64,000 nucleotides of DNA from the NCBI GenBank assembly GCA_035578155.1, contig JAPWDM010000001.1:10577543-10641542 (forward strand), given 5' to 3'. Source of the DNA: Brachynemurus nebulosus. Lineage: Eukaryota > Arthropoda > Insecta > Neuroptera > Myrmeleontidae. A model generated the notes under the pieces. The model saw only the letters and a program-made list of their open reading frames with translations, searched no databases and was not told the DNA's origin. A program made the translations under genes and the position numbers. Below, piece after piece: positions 2,050 to 63,514 of this stretch (position 1 is the first letter of the stretch; each line of letters begins with the position of its first letter).

Positions 2050-2190
2050 ACTGACTGGCAGAACAACGCACAGCCGAAACTGTTGGGTTTAGAAGGACGA
2101 AATTTTGTACAGAAGTTCTCTATGCAACATAGGTAAGCACTAAGGAAGGATTTTTGAAGATTCGTCTCCTAAATGGGTTAAATAGCTAGT
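2050..2190. repeat. Short repeat, partner of 1336-1470
   Basis: Diverged direct copy of the block at 1336-1470, starting CACTGACTGGCAG. It is non-coding. Confidence 0.6.
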
Positions 2191-2487
2191 AACAATATAT
2201 ATGATAAAAATAAAAAAAAGTTAAGAAAATTACATACGTCAAATTTAAATGAAATGACTTTTCAAGTACGGCAATAATCAGCACTATTGTACGCAGCAGG
2301 TTATTTACTTACCTATCTAAGTGCAAAAAGGAACCGTCACTGGTAAAACAGGTAATAAATTTAAATACAATTTGAGTGAACATAGGGTGGTATTTGTTGT
2401 GAGCAATAAAATAATTTAACTTTTTGAAAGTTAATGATCACTAATAACACCGTCTCAAAAAGTCATCTCAAAAATTGTTGGATAAAA

Positions 2488-2709
2488 AAGGGTTGGCCAA
2501 CCCGCGGCCCGCCTAGAACTTTTTTTTGCCCGCGAGATTCATCACACTTATACAAAATATATTTATTTTATAATGACCAAGGTAGTGAAAACCAATTAAT
2601 TAAAAAAATAGATAATAATATATGGGAGCATATAATTTTATAGGCGGCCCGCGGAGTTATGATGGGCTTCCAAAGTGGCCCGCAAGATCATTTGAGTTGG
2701 CCACCCCTG
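2488..2709. mobile_element. hAT-type MITE, 222 bp
   Basis: The ends are AAGGGTTGGCCAACCC and, read inward from the right, CAGGGGTGGCCAACTC, a classic hAT-style TIR. The flanks are GGATAAAA (2480-2487) and GGATAAGG (2710-2717), an 8 bp TSD with two mismatches. Both ends carry GGCCCGC blocks that stand out from the AT-rich surroundings. It has no coding capacity. TIR and TSD together make the hAT call fairly safe. Confidence 0.8.
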
Positions 2710-2717
2710 GGATAAGG

Positions 2718-3590
2718 TATACCTCACTATACAATCATATGTTCGTACGCATATGTTACTCTAACCGCTGACCATAGAGATACATAGAGAGACAACTTAA
2801 AAAATCGTTTAAAAAGTATATAGTCATTAAAGAAAAAGATGACAGCAGTCATTTGTATTTGTATACTATATTTTGTCTTTATCTAATTAATGGCAAGATA
2901 TATTTGTTAAGGGAATGCTAACTTTGAGTCAGGAATAAACAAAGATACACTAAACATTTAATGTCTTGTTGTCACACTCTTATCAATTGTTTATGTTGGA
3001 GTTTTTGTTGTCATAGATCACAGTTGTGTACGAGTACATCACTACCTGTATTTTTGTCTAAACTCTAAATAGAAATATTTTCTATGTTTTTGAGAGGTGA
3101 ACCTTAATATTGTAGATTTTTTGTATCGTTGTGATGCTCTGCTATGGTAAACGAAATTCGATCGAAATCGGCGAAGAGCATATCTGGACGCCTTCTTGTA
3201 AATTAAAAGACGAATCAATCAAGTTCTGTATGTAGGTGCTAAACAACATAAATTTTCTTTTTAATCGCTGACTAGCAGATTACAGTTCGTTCGTGAATTT
3301 TATTACCCCCCTGGATAAATCTGACATTATCAAGAGCTTTTACTGTAAGCGAATGGAAATACGAAACAGTAATACGAAAAAGTTTATGGGTACATCAACC
3401 CAGTGATGTTAGATTGTTTGTTTCATTCTGTTAGAGAGTTAGTGAATAAAAACTATAGTTTGGGATATACACAAAATCGGCCCGTGGGCGGTATAAACGG
3501 TGCACCGTACTAAACCCCGCGCCACTGACTTTTACTGATTTTGTAAAATTAAAAATTTAAATGTGCTTTGAAAGACGATACTGATTTATT
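2718..3590. other. Nothing recognised
   Basis: AT-rich DNA without an open frame, TIR pair or tandem repeat that I can see. Confidence 0.45.
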
Positions 3591-15226: not shown

Positions 15227-15650
15227 TACTGCGATATATATATGCTGATCCAATTGAGAGAAAGAAAAATGTGAATGTATTGGACACACGGATATAAAAA
15301 AAAAACATTAGGAATTTTTTGAGTAAACAAATCATTATATATGTATACAGGGTGGAATTTTGATAACTCTTATACCTTTTGGTATATTTCGATAAAATTT
15401 TACGATGATTTAGAACAGAATTTGTTGGAAACAACATAGCTATGTTTTAAGCTATATTGTTTCCAACAAGTTCCGTTCTAAATCATCGTAAAATTTTATG
15501 GAAATTCACCAAAAGTATAAGAGTTATTAAAATTCCACCCTGTATACATATACAATGATTTGTTTACACAAAAAATTCCGAATTTTTTTTTTTAATATCT
15601 GTGTGACCAATGCATACACATTTTTCTTTCTCTCAATCAGATCAGCAGTG
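15227..15650. mobile_element. Long-hairpin MITE family F, copy 1
   Basis: Almost the whole element is one inverted repeat. The left arm starts GCTGATCCAATTGAGAGAAA and the right arm, read inward, starts CACTGCTGATCTGATTGAGA. The centre holds AACAACATAGCTATGTT. The left terminus is disturbed by a short TA run after CTACTGC. A second copy sits inside the large transposon at 62416-62922. Confidence 0.85.
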
Positions 15651-15896
15651 TATATAAGTCAATGCGCATTTAATACGGCTGAACTTGGTGAAATCTCAGA
15701 CTTCATCAAATGATTTAGACTTTAGAGCATCAAGATCTGGTTTGAGCACATGTTTTACATCAAAAGATACATATAATAATACGGGAGGTAGCGTTGTATT
15801 TACATTGGTGATTTTAGGCCGAATGAATTCTACTTTAAATATTAGATTAGTACCTAATAATCATCAAAACAGGCGTCAACCGTCGCACCCGCAGTG

Positions 15897-43910: not shown

Positions 43911-44156
43911 GAGTAGCTCCTATAAGAAATACTTTACACTGATGGGACAATAAAATTCAGAGGCCAACGACTAAAAAACTTTTTTAATACTTTAACCATA
44001 TTTTTATGGATTTTAGTGTGCTGAATCTGAAAATAACAATAAAATTGCTGTATCACCCACCATTTCCCTACATTTTACATCATAAACCTTTATATTCAAA
44101 AAAATAGTTCAGAAAATTAATGCAATCAATATAATACTAAATATTTACGCATTTAT

Positions 44157-44644
44157 CAGAAGCAAAGTTACAAGAGGGCGTCTTCATTAGCCCTGGTATA
44201 AGAAAAATGATGTTTGACTCTGAGTTTAAATTACATATAACAGTGAAAGAGAAAGACGCTTGGATTGCTTTCAAGGAAGTTGTTAACAAGTTTTTGGGTA
44301 ACAAAAAAGACCCACACTATAATATAACCATTGTATCTAATATGCTTAATCACTTCAAGAATTTGGGATGTTTAACGAGCTTAAAGGTTCATTTGTTAAA
44401 CAGCCAGCTAGACTACTTTCTGGACAATTTAGGAGCTGTCAGTGAAGAACAAGGAGAACGTTTCCACCAGGATATTAAGATAATGAAGGGATCCCGCTAT
44501 CAGGGACGTTGGAACACCAGGATGATGGGAAATTATTGTTGGTCCTTTCACCAAGAAAGTCAGCAAGCGGCACACAGAAGAAAAAGCCACATCCGAAGCT
44601 TCAAAGAAAAGAGAGAAAGAAAATATAAGCTCATGGACTCTTAA
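44157..44644 (+). CDS. Open exon of the GERFHQDI multi-copy family
   Basis: The exon is open to a stop at 44642-44644; a methionine at 44207 is internal rather than the likely start. Residues upstream of it (SEAKLQEGVFISPG) still match the family and begin just after TTTATCAG, a possible splice acceptor. Conserved blocks in order are KDAWIAFKEVVNKFLGN, NMLNHFKNLGC, LDYFLDNLGAVSEEQGERFHQDI, RYQGRWN, MMGNYCWSF and a basic tail with HRRKS. This is the C-terminal third of a longer family protein; I find no matching upstream exons in the window. The function of the family is unknown to me. A broken copy lies opposite at 43040-43540, so the two are head to head. Confidence 0.75.
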
Positions 44645-52254: not shown

Positions 52255-52445
52255 GGTCCATATACGGTTCAACTTGTTGTACAACTTGGTTGAGTTGTAC
52301 AACATGTTGAATCGTGTGTGGGGCAGTTGATCAACTATTTTGATGGTTGCATAAACGGTTGAAGTAAAATCAAAATATTTTGATTTTACATGGGCGGAGC
52401 AAATGGTCTATGAACATGTTGTACTGTGTGTGGGGTAGTGGAACA
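52255..52445. repeat. Direct repeats at the 3' edge of the Harbinger relic
   Basis: ACAACATGTTGAATCGTGTGTGGGG-like and GAACATGTTGTACTGTGTGTGGGG-like blocks about 115 bp apart, plus GTTGTACAAC palindromes, look like the subterminal end of a PIF/Harbinger element. Confidence 0.6.
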
Positions 52446-52848
52446 ACAAAACCAGTACATATTTGCTGTAAAGAGTGTAATCAACAAAATATTTACAGCG
52501 GTAACAATTGGAAAGTTTAAATATTTGATTTTGTTTGTTATTTCCAATAGCTTGCGGTGATACCGAATTTGAAAATTTTAAAATTTTGAAAGAATTTCCC
52601 GTTGCAAGAAACCTTAATGTAATTTCCAAGTGTGTTTTTGCAGAAATTGCATTACGCATAAAAGTATCTTCTTTGCTTCTTAAAGGTGTTATTTTTACTA
52701 AAATATCATTAAAAATTTCTTCGTTCATTCGCATATAATTTTTGTAATCGCCTGGTTCACATTCACTAATTTCTTTAAATAGTTTTTCATTAGAAAATTT
52801 TTTTCCCAACCACTCTTTGCTCTATTTTCTTTTTTTTCGTTTACTCAT
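52408..52848 (-). pseudogene. PIF/Harbinger transposase N-terminal relic
   Basis: Minus-strand start near 52848 (MSKRKKRK, then a stop, then SKEWLGKKFSNEKLF). The recognisable Harbinger segment is DYKNYMRMNEEIFNDILVKI, TPLRSKEDTFMRNAISA and LRFLATGNSFKILKFSNSVS, followed by PQAIG. This is the helical region before the DDE nuclease. After PQAIG the frame runs into element-end sequence, so the whole catalytic domain is deleted. Dead copy. Confidence 0.85.
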
Positions 52849-56929: not shown

Positions 56930-57153
56930 TATCTATATTAATATAAACAATTTAACCCATGTGTATTAAGTCCTATAAGAATATTGTAGTTTTTTTTTCA
57001 CTTTTACCATAAAAAAAGGCAAATTTTTACAGCGAAAAAATAGTAGGAAACATGAATCAGCCATTTCGTTTGTAGGTAAACATGATCAAAATGAATTTTT
57101 TTTTTTTTTTTGGTAAATTTAACTGATTTTAATGCTATAGTACCGAAATATTA
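56930..57153. repeat. Paralogous empty site for the large transposon
   Basis: AACAATTTAACCCATGTGTATTAAG and the following AGTCCTATAAGAATATTGTA align continuously with the two flanks of the 57329-63316 transposon (GACAATTTAACTCATA and TATGTATAAAGTCCCATAAG) once one TA is removed. The sequence is therefore a tandem paralogue of the target site, uninterrupted by the element. Identity is about 80 per cent over about 200 bp. Confidence 0.82.
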
Positions 57154-57175: not shown

Positions 57176-57339
57176 TCATGGGACAAATTTAGCAAGTAGG
57201 TGTCGTACACGACACCTATATCTTTTTTTATCTTTTAACTAATTACCGCTATGCCGCTTCCGGTGTCTCAAATCAACATTTAATTGAGTTTGGAAGTAGG
57301 TATATTTTATGTGACAATTTAACTCATACACAGTAAAAA

Positions 57340-57600
57340 ACATTTGTGTTTGTGTACAAAAAACCAGTGGTTAAAATTTTTGTGTTAAATAAGTAACACA
57401 TCCCTGTGTTAATGTAACATTTAGTGTTTGTGTTAAATGAAAATATTAACACAAATTTCGATTTAACAGAATAAAAATGTTAATCTATTTTAAACAACAC
57501 AAGACTGACATATTCTTTATGTAAAAGAAAAAAAATGTTATAAGTACACTTTTTTGTGTATTTTCAACACAAAAATTGTGTCATATATACAAAAAACTAC
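57340..57600. repeat. Left subterminal palindrome array
   Basis: GTGTTAAATAAGTAACAC, GTGTTAATGTAACA, GTGTTAAATGAAAATATTAACAC-type and GTGTATTTTCAACACA units occur close together next to the left TIR. They mirror the right array and are candidate transposase-binding sites. Confidence 0.8.
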
Positions 57601-57722
57601 ATTCGACAAAATGTAAAATTAACCGCGCTTTTAATGTTTCAGTTGAAGTACGTATACCAACTGCTATGAACTATACCAAGCCACGCTTGGCGGTTAGGCG
57701 TTCCGCGTTCTCTTACAACTGT

Positions 57723-57824
57723 TCAGTTATTAATTAGTTGTGCATTCATATTTATTAGTTGTGCAATATTTAAAAAGTTAATTAAATTTATTTTATTTAT
57801 ACAAATATTGAATATTGATTATAG
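57723..57824 (+). promoter_or_regulatory. Putative start region and 5' UTR exon of the transposon gene
   Basis: TTCAGTT at about 57722-57728 fits an insect initiator (TCAGT). The presumed untranslated exon ends at ATAG before a strong donor GTAAGT (57825). The matching acceptor TTTTCAG ends at 58074, just before the start codon at 58100. This is inference from splice signals only. Confidence 0.45.
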
Positions 57825-58099
57825 GTAAGTTACTTAATATATATTTTTTTTAAATTAAAGTACATATTGCATACATTTAAAATGCATTGATATAAACTTA
57901 ACCCTCATAACCTTAAATATAAGTTGTTCATAGTACGCGTTCTTCGTACGGAATTTACAATAATAAATAATTAATTTTAAAGTAGAAAAAAATGATATTT
58001 TTAAAGTAAAATTTGATTATTTTCTACTGTTATCAAAGTAAATTCGTAGTTACATATATCTATTTGATTTTCAGTTGTCACTTGTGATCCTCCTACGCG

Positions 58100-60055
58100 A
58101 TGAGTAATTTTCCGGAAGAAACTATTTCGTGGTTGTTTTTCGTGTTTAAATATGATGATCATAAAATGTGGGTGAAAATACCGGAACTATGTCTGTATGA
58201 AGATTTTGTTAATAAAGGTGTTATAAATTCTTTTTGTGATTTTTACAAATATTATTCGAATTTAATGAAATTGTGGTGATCATTTATTTTAGCTTGTGAA
58301 TTATTTCCGAATCTAAGCGAGAATGAGTTTTTCTTTACGGACGAACGTGATGTAATATTGGATTCGGATATTTTAGCGGATTACGTGCGACTAAACGATC
58401 GAGGCGTTATTGTGAAAATTCATTGTCAAACAATTGTAGAATTTATAGACATTTGTAATAACAAAATTTCTTTTAAATACTGGGTGTATTCGCGTTGTCG
58501 CTACCGTAGCGAGGAGCGACGCTACTTTGCATTCACATATTCGCAACCAATAGATTCCGGTGGTCACGAGAGCCATATTTAAAAATATTTTGATATGACT
58601 AACGCAATATGGCTCCCGTTGACACATAACCGTGCACATAACTTAAAAAAATTTAAATTTTTCAAACTGTTTATGTTTTAATAATTTTTGTATTATGCCA
58701 CGTTAATTTTAATAATTCAAACATTAAATTTTGAATGACATTTGTATGCTACCCGAACAACTATAGCGCGTATCCATGGGAGCAATGCTTATACAACGCG
58801 AACATGCAGAATGCTACGTCGATCTGAAGTGATGCTCACGGAAGCGATGAAAGCCACAACGCGAATACGCCCCATTCGATAAATTTTTTGTTTTTAATAT
58901 CTGACAAAATTACATTTTAATTTCTTATTACAGCAAAATCTCCATCACCTTCATTATTAAGTACACCAACTTCTTCACGAGTGTCAACTCCATTGATAGA
59001 CTGGTATGAGCCGCAGGCTACATTAACTGAACCTGATCCAAAGAGACGCCGTCTTGATGACCCGAGTTCGATTCTTTCTAAAGAAGTAAGTTTTATTATG
59101 AAATTGATATTACTCTTGATGCCAAAGAAAATTCATTGTAGTTTTTACAAATTTAATAAGGTATTATTTATTATATTTGCAATAGTTAACCCATTAGTGA
59201 CCACAATATTACACGTAATACTGTGCGAAAGTCAACTTTAAGGGCATTTTTTTTTAATTGAAGGCATTTAAATATATAAAATAACAATAGGATAACGTTC
59301 TTTGAATTTTTCTCTCTCTTGCCGTGTAAAAGCTACTATTAACAGGCTTCCAGTTGAACTTTTGTATTTAAAAAAGGGTCTGTAACGCGCAGTGCAGATT
59401 GTCACAAATTTTTTACATTGATTTTTAAATATATTAAATTTAAATTTAAAAAACTGTGCCGGAGTGTTAGTAAAATATGTGTTTAAAGCATTAAATATGA
59501 AATAATTGATAAAAATAAATATTAAAATAGAAATTTTCTGCAGAGAACTGACAGATATGTTTTAAAATACGCTAGGTTGTAACGTAATCAAAGAGTAGTA
59601 TCTTGTAGAGATTATTCCACGTATCTTGTTACACTTATTTCGTTGCTAACTTCGTGAATGAGAGATAAGTAGTTGTAAAATATGATAAATAAAGAAGGAA
59701 TGAAGTGCGACTTCGGATTTTGAAGTTTAATAATATGTAAATTCTTTTAGAAATTTTGACAAAGTAAATGGAAGTAGAGAAAAAATATGGGAATATTTCG
59801 GAAAGATTTTGTGTGCAAATTTTCCCGAGCATAATGAAAATTAAATATTCTCAATAAAAATAACATGATATATTAGGGTGACAGATACATTCAATTTTAG
59901 ATAACACGTAACCACTTTTATTTTCCTAGTGTCAGTTTTAAAAAGTCAAGAACAATAAATCAGTTTTAAAGAAAGGATCATTAACCTTTTTTTTTTTAAA
60001 TTTTAACCTTATTTATTTTACTTCTGATAAATTTATTTCATATTTCCCGCCAAAG

Positions 60056-60111
<56 letters not shown>

Positions 60112-61919
60112 ACGACCCACAATATTATATATAATACGGGCCTTTACTCTTATCCTGGGAAGGATACAAGGATCATCTTTGGGGATTTACTTTATATTGC
60201 CATTCTACATCTTTACATGAAATTTCATCAAAATCTGACCGATAGAAACAGGAGCGGGATCTAATGGGTTAATCAAGATTAATTCGTTAATTGGCTCCAA
60301 AGTGATCGTATATTTTTCTTTGCTTACAGAATTTACTTAAATTAATCCAAAAATCATCTTGTGGTGAGGATATACTTACCAATTATAATACTACGAAGCT
60401 ATTATCAACAAAATATCGTAAACTTCTCGTAAACATTGTTGTTCAGTATTTATTAAATCATCAAAAAAAAGTAAACAGACAGTTATTATCTGCTGAAAAG
60501 TGTCAATGCGCTGAAGCAATTATAGACTTATTCCCAAATTTAAGAAATACGAAATCTGATCTGGGTTATGTAAGTTGACAAATTTTTCTTCTCTTTCTAA
60601 AGGGCCCCATACACAATCAGATCTGTATCAAAACCTGGTATCGATATTAGATAGCGATACATGTGTCTGAGATTTGTACCAAGTTTATTTAGCACACACA
60701 CGTTGAAACAGAATCGTGAAACCACCAACTTGATCAAAAATTTTATTAATAAAATTTTATTATTTAACGATACTTGAAACAAGCCCACACACGCTGATAG
60801 AAGGCAATTTTTGTATCAATATCGTGATTCATGTATCTTTGTTGCAGTACAGTGATACCGAGACAATCATCACATATACGACGAGATCTGATACCTGCAA
60901 CATGTAGTGATACAGATCTTATCGTGTATGGGGCCCTTTAAATGATAAATTTCACTGATTCTGCTATAGAATCTATAATTTATCATACTCAAATACTCAG
61001 TACTGGAACACATAGATGAAACGGACATTATCAAAGATGCAATTACCTTTATGAAAAGTGCAACAATAGACCAAAAAGAAGACATTATTGAAAAAATTAA
61101 ATTAACATTCAAATATCGAAGATTCATGTATCTCAATGAGCATTTTCTTGAAGCTTTCCCGAGATTTTTGGACCTCCCAGAATTGGTAAGATATTTTGTT
61201 AATAATTTTTATGCCTAAAATGATTATAATTTTATTTAATATGATATTTGACTAAAAATTAATGTAGATTGATGTGGAGTTTGAGCTATTATTTCCATTG
61301 ACTGACAAGAATAGTTTGATCAGGCTATATCCAGACTATGTCAACGCGATTCTGACCGTCTATGAGAACGAGAGAAAAGATCCAAGTCTACTTGGTTAGC
61401 AATTTTTTCTAAATTATTTATAGAATAAAATAATATATTTTAAAGTCTTATTTATTATGTGTTGTACTTAGAATGGGACCGCATTAGTAATGCTATGATA
61501 GCACTCACTCAGTTACTACCTCCAACAGCCAAGGGCAAGCATTCATCATCTAGAGAAAAAGCCAGGAATATTATAAAAAAGTTGATTGTTTTCAAAGAGG
61601 TATGTTTTTTTCTAGAAGTAGTAAATAACATAATAAATTCTATTCCTTAATTTCATTACTTTTTCAGCGTGGAACACCACTGACAGCTGACGAGGAACAT
61701 CAAAATCAACCTAAATTGATTGCAGTTGGACCAAACAAAGTAGCAATTGATCAATACTTTTTGGAAATTGATAAAAAATTTATACTGCTGCCCACAAAGG
61801 ATATTGTAGAAGCGACGGATTACTTATTTAAAGCTCACTTTGTCTTTCATGTACAGTACGACAACGATCTTCGCAACTTTTGGGTATTCCTACAGCATTA
61901 TATTTATAAAATACCTTAA
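58100..61919 (+). CDS. SAMD3-like uncharacterised protein, transposon gene (multi-exon)
   Basis: Exons read from GT-AG signals: 58100-58217, 58293-58454, 58934-59085, 60330-60569, 61001-61185, 61268-61394, 61472-61599, 61668-61919. Exons 1-4 join in phase and give about 224 residues: start MSNFPEETISWLFFVF, an acidic segment, a Ser/Pro-rich linker with the basic PKRRRLDD (possible nuclear signal), then a helical LLKLIQKSSC...LLVNIVVQYLL block. Exons 5-8 are in phase with one another (about 229 residues): KLTFKYRRFMYLNEHFLEAF, LDLPELIDVEFELLFP, a helical middle, AIDQYFLEIDKKFILL and the strongly conserved FKAHFVFHVQYDNDLRNFW. From memory, these blocks match the SAMD3-like family expanded in fish and arthropods; function unknown. 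Exon 4 ends in phase 0 but exon 5 needs one more base, so an exon is missing or lost. No catalytic triad is evident. Likely role is the transposase or an accessory DNA-binding protein, by context only. Confidence 0.75.
60061..60109. repeat. (TA)n microsatellite in intron 3
   Basis: Pure TA run inside the 1.24 kb third intron of the transposon gene. Confidence 0.95.
60602..60936. mobile_element. MITE inside the transposon gene, 335 bp
   Basis: The TIRs are GGGCCCCATACACAATCAGA and, inward from the right, GGGCCCCATACACGATAAGA. The flanks are TAAA and TTTA, which do not form a clean direct duplication, so the target length is unresolved; TIR style suggests PIF/Harbinger. It sits between exons 4 and 5, where the reading phase does not close and where relatives have an extra conserved block. 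Confidence 0.8.
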
Positions 61920-61985
61920 ATTTATAAAATATACATTAAATTTATAAAATATTAAATGTTAGAGATGATTCATTTATTTATTTAG

Positions 61986-62290
61986 GAAAAAATGTTTACT
62001 TTCGCGGAACAATTTTAATACCAAGCAAATTTATACTTACTTCTCATACGGAAAATTTTCCAACTTTTAGTAAAACTTTATTTTTTTTTGTTGCCAATTC
62101 CACAACATATGCTGTATGTGAAAGCTGGCTTACTTTGAAAGTTTCCCCTACATGCTTAGGTTATGTTGTTCAAAAGAATAATTCAAATTTATTTATTATA
62201 AAGATAAGTGATTTACCTTACACAAAAAGTTGGAATATTTATAAATCTTCTGATGAAGAGCATGTTATTGTAACAGAACACTTTTTGTAA
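61986..62290 (+). CDS. Probable last exon of the transposon gene
   Basis: After the acceptor TTTATTTAG an open frame reads KNVYFRGTILIPSKFILTSH, PTFSKTLFFFVANSTTYAV, CESWLTLKVSPTCLGYVVQK and ends DEEHVIVTEHFL before TAA at 62288-62290. Two AATAAA signals follow at once (62297 and 62311), as expected of a real gene end. The frame needs one extra base from the previous exon, but every GT donor I see in exon 8 leaves phase 0, so either exon 8 carries an indel or this is spliced differently. The composition is protein-like. I do not recognise the domain. Confidence 0.6.
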
Positions 62291-62296
62291 ATTTAG

Positions 62297-62316
62297 AATA
62301 AAAAAGTATGAATAAA
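62297..62316 (+). terminator. Tandem poly(A) signals
   Basis: AATAAA at 62297-62302 and 62311-62316, directly after the stop of the last exon. Confidence 0.6.
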
Positions 62317-62415
62317 AAAAACTATTGAAAAATTATTTTTTACTATTTTCTTTCATTTTTTAATTAAAAACAATGTTAACAATATTAATAACAGTAAAAT
62401 TAGCAATAATAAATT

Positions 62416-62922
62416 CACTGCTGATCCGACTGAGAGAAAGAAAAATGCATATGTATTGGTCACATAGATATAAAAGAAAACGTTAGGAATTTTTTGAGTA
62501 AACAAATCATATATGTATACAGGGTGGAATTTTCATAACTCTTATGCTTTTTAGTAAATTTCGATAAAATTTTACGATGATTTAGAACAGAATTTGTTAG
62601 AAACAACATAGCTATGTTGTTTCCGAAAAATTCCGTTCTAAATCATCGTAAAATTTTATGAAATATAAAATTTTACGATAATTTAGAACAGAATTTGTTG
62701 AAAACAACATAATTTAAAATATAGCTATGTTGTTTCCAACAAATTCCGTTCTAAACCATCGTAAAATTTTATCGAAATTCACCAAAAGTATAAGAGTTAT
62801 TAAAATTCCACCCTGTATACATATATAATGATTTGTTTACATAAAAAATTCTTAATCTTTTTTTTTATATCTGTGTGACCAATACATACGCATTTTTCGT
62901 TCTCTCAATCGGTTCAGCAGTG
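62416..62922. mobile_element. Long-hairpin MITE family F, copy 2
   Basis: The ends CACTGCTGATCCGACTGAGA and, inward from the right, CACTGCTGAACCGATTGAGA match copy 1 at 15227-15650. The centre is longer: the GATTTAGAACAGAATTTGTT hairpin is present twice in tandem (about 62578-62660 and 62672-62765). It is inserted downstream of the poly(A) signals of the transposon gene, so it is younger than the host transposon. Confidence 0.87.
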
Positions 62923-62944
62923 TAAATAAAAAAAAAAAAAATAG

Positions 62945-63305
62945 TAACATAAAAAAAGTGTCAAATTTAACACAATGATGTGTAAAATTAACTGATTTAG
63001 TATGTTGTATAATACTATATGCAACACATTTATTGAGTAAACTTCTACATTCTAATTCAGTTAATTTGACACATCACTGTGTTAAAAATGTACACTAAAT
63101 AATGGTTATTATTAACATATTTATTGTTAAAATTATAACATAACTCATTGTGTAAAATTAACACAAAATGTATGTCCTTTTGTGTGTTAAATCATTGACA
63201 CAAATCTTGTGTATAGATTTGACACATATGCTTTGTGTTAAAATAACACAAAAAATTGAGTGGACCGTTCTGGACATGTGAAATGTGTTAATTTTGACAC
63301 AAATT
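62945..63305. repeat. Right subterminal palindrome array
   Basis: GTGTCAAATTTAACACA, GTGTAAAATTAACACA, TGTGTTAAATCATTGACACA, TTGTGTTAAAATAACACA and ATGTGTTAATTTTGACACA crowd the last 360 bp. Spacing is irregular. It mirrors the left array. Confidence 0.82.
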
Positions 63306-63316
63306 TTTCGACAGTG

Positions 63317-63514
63317 TATGTATAAAGTCCCATAAGAATATTGTAGCTTTTTTTTCACTTTTACCATGGAAAAGAAAGAACAGATTTTTACAGCGAAAAA
63401 AATGTTACAAAACATTTCATTGGTCATTTCATTGTAGATAAACACGGTAAAAACAAAACAAAAATTCGTATTGGTAAATTTAATTGATTTCAGAATCATA
63501 GTAACAATGTATTA
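63317..63514. repeat. Right half of the interrupted target repeat
   Basis: Begins at the TSD and aligns with 56958-57153 (AAGTCCCATAAGAATATTGT; TTTTTACAGCGAAAAAA). With 57290-57328 it makes one copy of the tandem repeat into which the transposon inserted. Confidence 0.8.

Follow-up and report, generated by a model that had tools for sequence, protein, structure and literature searches.

Introduction

Maize En/Spm, like the transposon described here, carries arrays of subterminal repeats. It encodes two proteins, TNPA and TNPD, which the passages on En/Spm in PMC1636069 describe as both essential for transposition, TNPA being a DNA-binding protein. TNPA and TNPD come from one alternatively spliced transcription unit, whereas the present element has two tandem coding units, and the likeness that we draw to TNPA is one of description rather than of compared sequences. 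Fungal EnSpm elements have similar CAC..GTG ends, but their target site duplication is 3 bp long as opposed to 2 bp here, and the parts of PMC12730594 that treat EnSpm mention neither a PB1 companion gene nor a BAH-like tail, both of which occur here. In animals, CACTA-type elements with 2-bp duplications have been described, in passages of PMC1636069 and PMC4298943. SmTRC1 has 2-bp direct repeats in 7 of 14 copies, according to one such passage (PMC1636069), and the TRC elements (SmTRC1 and those of Tribolium and Aedes), together with Spongebob, are portrayed there as having 2-bp repeats and shorter proteins without a transposase domain, as is seen here (PMC1636069; PMC4298943). TRC ends begin with CCC, whereas those of the present element begin with CACWG.

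RAG1/RAG2 and the RAG-like transposons share with this element a core fold, alignable over 467 residues, and the possession of a second gene, although identity between RAG1 and the transposase here is only 12%. Their second proteins differ, since RAG2 is of the kelch/PHD type whereas a PB1 protein is found here, where a possible chromatin reader is instead fused to the transposase. A PB1 domain tied to a transposon-derived protein, as here, is also known from the plant MUGB genes. These are portrayed in sections of PMC8616336 as MULE-derived host genes in which PB1, thought to be host-acquired, is fused to the former transposase; here it lies in a gene of its own within an animal CMC element.

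In this report we examine a feature of a 64,000-nucleotide stretch of Brachynemurus nebulosus DNA (hereafter the window). We consider it to be, with a probability of about 0.88, a two-gene cut-and-paste transposon of CMC type (CACTA/EnSpm-like), present here as a copy that moved recently, has lost internal sequence, and is non-autonomous. Well preserved and belonging to the known CMC group, the element combines a PB1 companion gene with a BAH-like transposase tail, an architecture that we did not find in print in searches of open PMC text. Those searches, which exclude subscription journals and Repbase, gave no paper linking SAMD3 with transposons, the matches listed being irrelevant by title. 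The sole match for "SAMD3-like" in open PMC text was unrelated by title; among matches listed there, PB1 domains and transposons met only in the plant MULE-derived MUGB (PMC8616336), and no transposon literature with a BAH domain appeared.

Ends and Target Site of the Element

The copy occupies 57329-63316 and is flanked on either side by a TA dinucleotide, the left (57327-57328) and right (63317-63318) target site duplications. Its termini, CACAGT... and ...ACAGTG, belong to short and imperfect terminal inverted repeats, CACAGTAAAAAACATTTGTG at 57329-57348 on the forward strand and CACTGTCGAAAAATTTGTGT, read inward on the reverse strand, at 63297-63316. Subterminal arrays of GTGTTA/TAACAC units occupy both margins, with five units in the first 300 bp (57329-57628; mean of dinucleotide shuffles 0.84) and seven in the last 370 bp (62947-63316; mean 1.07), counts that none of 1,000 shuffles reached in either case; the interior holds three (mean 3.42) and is not enriched. 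The sequence-only reading of this DNA had proposed paired CACWGT terminal repeats and subterminal palindrome arrays, and both proposals hold, the former with both ends found at 15 of 20 further loci. Short ends of the form TACACWGT number seven in the 64-kb window against 4.4 expected and are not remarkable by themselves. A scan for this short motif is weak evidence; that for the element lies in its multi-copy structure.

About 200 bp upstream of the element, 56962-57129 on the forward strand is 76% identical to the right flank (63319-63490). Around the insertion point, the alignment has no gaps from approximately 15 bp on its left to approximately 50 bp on its right, and similarity is poor further left. 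This segment is a related (paralogous) empty site.

Copies in the Genome

When the 960-Mb assembly was searched with 1,072 bp of the left end, 54 matches came back, and ten places, the window among them, match this query over the full length at 99-100%. We retrieved 20 further loci and extended 8 of those. Both ends were located at 15 of the 20 (with at most four mismatches in 25 bases), the search at this threshold failing at L022, L024, L026, L027, and L028, and CAC...GTG termini are present in the window copy and at all 15. Two of these loci, L020 and L023, have common flanks, which leaves 15 distinct sites counting the window, and so one of the two looks like a larger duplication that carried the element with it. 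A matching 2-bp duplication is found at 14 of the 15 sites, window included: TA at nine, CA at two, and TG, AA, and TT at one each, with none at L019. The TA duplication that had been claimed is thus present in the window, but a strict TA target must be rejected, given the other dinucleotides.

Divergence from the window copy is low, amounting to 3 substitutions in 5,965 for L009, 0.17-0.32% for eight other copies, 2.2-2.5% for five L018-type copies, and 4.1% for L025. The earlier claim of a mobile DNA transposon holds; the family moved recently, and the window copy is recently transposed. The longer copies mostly measure 7.2-7.6 kb. One subfamily (L018, L019, L020, L021, and L023; approximately 6.1-7.3 kb) has kept SAMD3-like exons and shows no transposase match, and short derivatives with a common 271-bp left end also occur (L027, L028).

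The protein encoded in the window is one that we take to be SAMD3-like; SAMD3 figures in no name shown for its 21 homologues, which include insects and fish. SAMD3-like loci with at least two exon matches number 18 in this genome, and all 18 have a left-end match by coordinates, one of them lying approximately 14 kb downstream of its left end and right ends having been located for not all 18. The transposon explains the copy number of the SAMD3-like gene in this genome, as had been suspected from the sequence.

The SAMD3-Like Gene and Its Product

The multi-exon SAMD3-like gene fills much of the element's interior on the forward strand, and no other coding part of the window copy is as large. 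Exons 1 (58100-58217) and 2 (58293-58481, given with its ancestral end and a phase read from the sequences) encode the first and second parts of a PB1 domain, a fold predicted in the model of homologue P0002. Exon 3 (58934-59085) encodes a linker without a profile match of its own, and exon 4 (60330-60569), which is missing in L030, a helical region. Exon 5 (61001-61185) is a remnant that has lost its 5' part and retains the FPRFLDLPEL block; exons 6 (61268-61394) and 7 (61472-61599) follow, and exon 8 (61668-61919) contains the FKAHFVFHV...NFW block and has lost its true 3' end.

The gene is broken in the window copy. A deletion of 168 bp relative to sister copies, at 60997/60998 (element 3669/3670), takes out a splice acceptor together with a conserved stretch of coding sequence (EHFYDPKTG...RRK), and the reading frame of exon 8 stops at a further deletion junction. 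A nested short inverted-repeat element of approximately 390 bp (58482-58873; ends GGGTGTATTCGCGTTGT and ACAACGCGAATACGCCC) interrupts the ancestral splice donor of exon 2 (TACT/GTCATT in L025); by alignment it is present in the recent copies, and it is absent from L025 and L026, which show the empty site. No GT-AG sites in the window fit the phase between exons 2 and 3, whereas the ancestral donor in L025 and L026 does. At 58455, 27 bp upstream of the ancestral donor, there is another in frame, GTAATA, so that splicing may continue. Other nested insertions were seen: a short inverted-repeat element at 60598-60940 in the intron after exon 4 (55-bp arms, 80% complementary), and a 507-bp palindrome-like element at 62416-62922 (95-bp arms, 88% complementary) with relatives at 15243-15657 in the window (84-90% identity).

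The model of P0002 consists of a PB1 domain (beta-grasp fold) and helical and mixed regions. No RNase H-like fold is among its structure matches listed (VIA, Foldseek), lists that are filled by PB1/ubiquitin-like folds and otherwise by low-probability matches, and that barely cover residues 175-552 and are uninformative on them. Near-invariant acidic residues in the SAMD3-like family are D60, E257, D261, D356, D405, D479, and D495. Sequence search of the PDB gave no match for P0002 at E ≤ 10, and the SAMD3-like profile returned from it only two chance-level matches (E 6-7). Pfam yielded nothing convincing on the homologues, and a sub-threshold EF-G-binding_N match in the window protein (E 0.02) was judged to be chance. 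As expected for an animal element, no relatives were confirmed in viral contigs, prokaryote genomes, or phages.

The Transposase Gene

The sequence-only reading saw a single multi-exon gene in the interior. The SAMD3-like gene does fill much of it, but transposase sequence is also encoded, at 61940-62290 on the forward strand, as a C-terminal remnant with most of a BAH-like domain and a stop codon. It corresponds, at 97% identity, to the last 116 codons of an 805-codon ORF (residues ~690-805). At its start, the junction of the deletion that took most of the transposase gene holds a 36-bp filler (61916-61951) that resembles the adjoining AT-rich sequence; at this point (element 4587/4624), L010 has 1,266 bp and L011, which is the same place as L030, has 2,335 bp containing the body of the 805-codon ORF from its ATG (L011 4126-6540). 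The open frame in the window is therefore the tail of a transposase, and the window copy a deletion derivative in which only that tail survives. An intact transposase ORF was found in one copy, L030, which has a clean CA duplication and lacks element positions 2053-3398, including SAMD3-like exon 4. The gene is broken or truncated in the other window-type copies, and none of the copies examined has both genes whole.

The transposase is a single ORF, located 3' of the SAMD3-like gene on the same strand, and combines a zinc-finger-like N-terminus, a RAG1-like RNase H core with C(2)C and H(3)H motifs, and a BAH-like C-terminal domain. Its model has a RAG1/Transib-like core fold (match over 467 residues at 12% identity) and a BAH fold at the C-terminus. 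Among homologues, conservation is complete for D286 (37/37), D378 (39/39), C398xxC401 (39/39), and H611x3H615 (37/37), and stands at 36/37 for E635; the equivalents in the L030 ORF are D275, D367, C387, C390, H601, H605, and E625. Judging from this pattern and the modeled fold, the conserved D, D, and E are probably catalytic. With the transposase profile, the best 60 of 133 PDB matches were zinc-finger proteins aligned at the N-terminus. Pfam Transposase_21 (tnp2) matched 4 of 39 homologues weakly (best E 9.5e-4) and did not match the 805-residue L030 ORF at E ≤ 10. The element has the 5'-CA..TG-3' ends, a duplication within the 2-5 bp range, and the RAG1/Transib-like fold of the CMC/CMCT group; as its duplication is 2 bp, not the 3 bp given for fungal EnSpm in PMC12730594, we file it under CMC/CMCT and not EnSpm proper.

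Dozens of further CMC-type transposase matches occur in the genome, mostly 29-42% identical to this transposase and many in open frames of 800-900 codons, and this insect harbors a rich CMC population. Elsewhere in the window, the open frames at 44141-44644 (167 codons) and 52408-52821 (137 codons) look transposon-derived by eye.

Association of the Two Genes

Transposase sequence lies within 5 kb of 11 of the 18 SAMD3-like loci (one intact, seven fragments, two with the tail only, and one degraded). At the other seven, six of L018 type and C1:136257773, no listed transposase match falls within that distance, from which it follows that copies lacking the transposase have spread. Of three distant loci examined, L037 has only SAMD3-like sequence and L039 only transposase, while L038, matched through profiles only, has a single open frame that runs from the C-terminal part of the SAMD3-like protein into the beginning of the transposase, with further transposase sequence behind it on that strand. 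Counting against the pairing, none of 22 places with a weak single SAMD3-like match has a listed transposase match within 10 kb; the list behind this count is incomplete, because L038 belongs to the 22 and does have a transposase.

In a set of 62 proteins, two gene models join both proteins. One, P0004, comes from Aphidius gifuensis and matches the transposase profile at E 2e-29; the other, P0061 of Aphis glycines, matches the SAMD3-like profile at E 2e-11, and its transposase is 27% identical over 58% of the query. A sequence search with the C-terminal part of P0004 recovered only itself at E ≤ 1e-3, the link to the transposase having come via the profile. Since P0004 and P0061 fuse the two proteins, automatic annotation treats such transposons as single host genes. 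In Microplitis mediator, LOC130672839 (SAMD3-like) and LOC130672830 (transposase) are listed with longest contigs of the same length, 29,344,518 bp, a circumstantial hint that both lie on one contig. Wherever both genes are seen, in the genome copies, in L038, and in the braconid and aphid models, the SAMD3-like gene comes first and the transposase second.

Discussion

The reading of the window feature as a deleted copy of a two-gene CMC-type transposon draws on the structure of the element and its 2-bp duplications, on the number of copies, on a transposase ORF that is intact in one of them, on the deletions seen in the window copy, and on conserved residues and predicted fold. A full element would comprise, in order, a CACWGT end, a GTGTTA array, the PB1 SAMD3-like gene, the transposase ORF, a second array, and an inverted end. 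The RAG1-like transposase would cut the CAC/GTG ends with its D-D-E residues and move the element by cut and paste, while the PB1 protein would assist, its likeliest task being to bind the subterminal repeats or to assemble the complex at the ends, much as TNPA acts with TNPD in maize. The window copy and its sisters would have been mobilized either by proteins provided in trans or at a time when their genes were still unbroken. In all likelihood the SAMD3-like protein is a companion of the RAG1-like transposase and not the enzyme that moves the element; a partner role, which may be an essential one, is the leading, testable idea.

The sequence-only reading had, as its first option, put the SAMD3-like protein forward as the candidate transposase of a new lineage. 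In favor of this are the size of its gene, unmatched by any other coding part of the window copy, and the exon-keeping subfamily (L018-L021 and L023), in which no transposase match was found. It is rejected on present evidence and we regard it as very improbable: the RAG1-like core, with its complete D-D-E set, is encoded by another gene of this element, the SAMD3-like gene of the window copy is itself broken, and the P0002 model, whose listed matches barely cover its non-PB1 part, shows PB1 plus helical and mixed regions with no RNase H among those matches. That reading also named what would count against it, namely a non-autonomous derivative of a known superfamily that had captured the gene once. 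The element is indeed a CMC deletion derivative, but a single capture of the gene is too simple an account, because it precedes the transposase also in the distant family of L038 and in the braconid and aphid gene models.

A serious rival is that the SAMD3-like gene is cargo, useful to the transposon or the host (for example in expression or anti-silencing) and dispensable for transposition. No copy examined has both genes whole, and the nested insertion at the exon-2 donor, common to the recent copies, makes it harder to argue that the latest movements depended on the SAMD3-like protein; the only copy found with an intact transposase, L030, has lost a SAMD3-like exon and yet has a clean duplication, though the loss could postdate insertion. 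There is also precedent in passages of PMC12730594 for TET/JBP cargo genes in fungal EnSpm and Plavaka elements. Against cargo stands the recurrence of the pairing in P0061 and L038, SAMD3-like gene first each time, and we hold it to be possible though doubtful. Window-type and L018-type copies might, alternatively, be ordinary deletion derivatives carried in trans, their SAMD3-like exons functionless leftovers, an explanation that fits whichever of the two roles the protein has in full elements. Short derivatives with the same 271-bp left end exist (L027, L028), the window gene is broken, and the C-terminal exons of L018-type copies show overlapping reading frames that contain stops. It would leave unexplained why the two genes are paired in longer elements and in other insects, and we hold it, too, to be possible though doubtful.

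Taking the companion role further, one may imagine the PB1 SAMD3-like proteins of insects and fish as the obligate partners of a CMC transposase with a RAG1-like core and a BAH tail, in a two-component transposon widespread among animals, with a PB1 oligomer assembling the transposase on the palindromic subterminal arrays and the BAH domain reading chromatin; host SAMD3 would then be a domesticated accessory gene of a transposon, as RAG1/RAG2 are domesticated transposon genes. This is speculative, and more likely wrong than right.

An "uncharacterized" multi-exon protein family of what looked like host genes can be reassigned to transposon genes, in this insect at least and in all probability also in braconids and aphids, which matters for gene counts and for studies of SAMD3-like expansions. 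Animal CMC transposons gain a candidate counterpart to TNPA, the accessory protein of maize, together with a transposase whose predicted fold resembles that of RAG1 closely enough for RAG1-based reasoning and which bears a candidate chromatin-reading tail.
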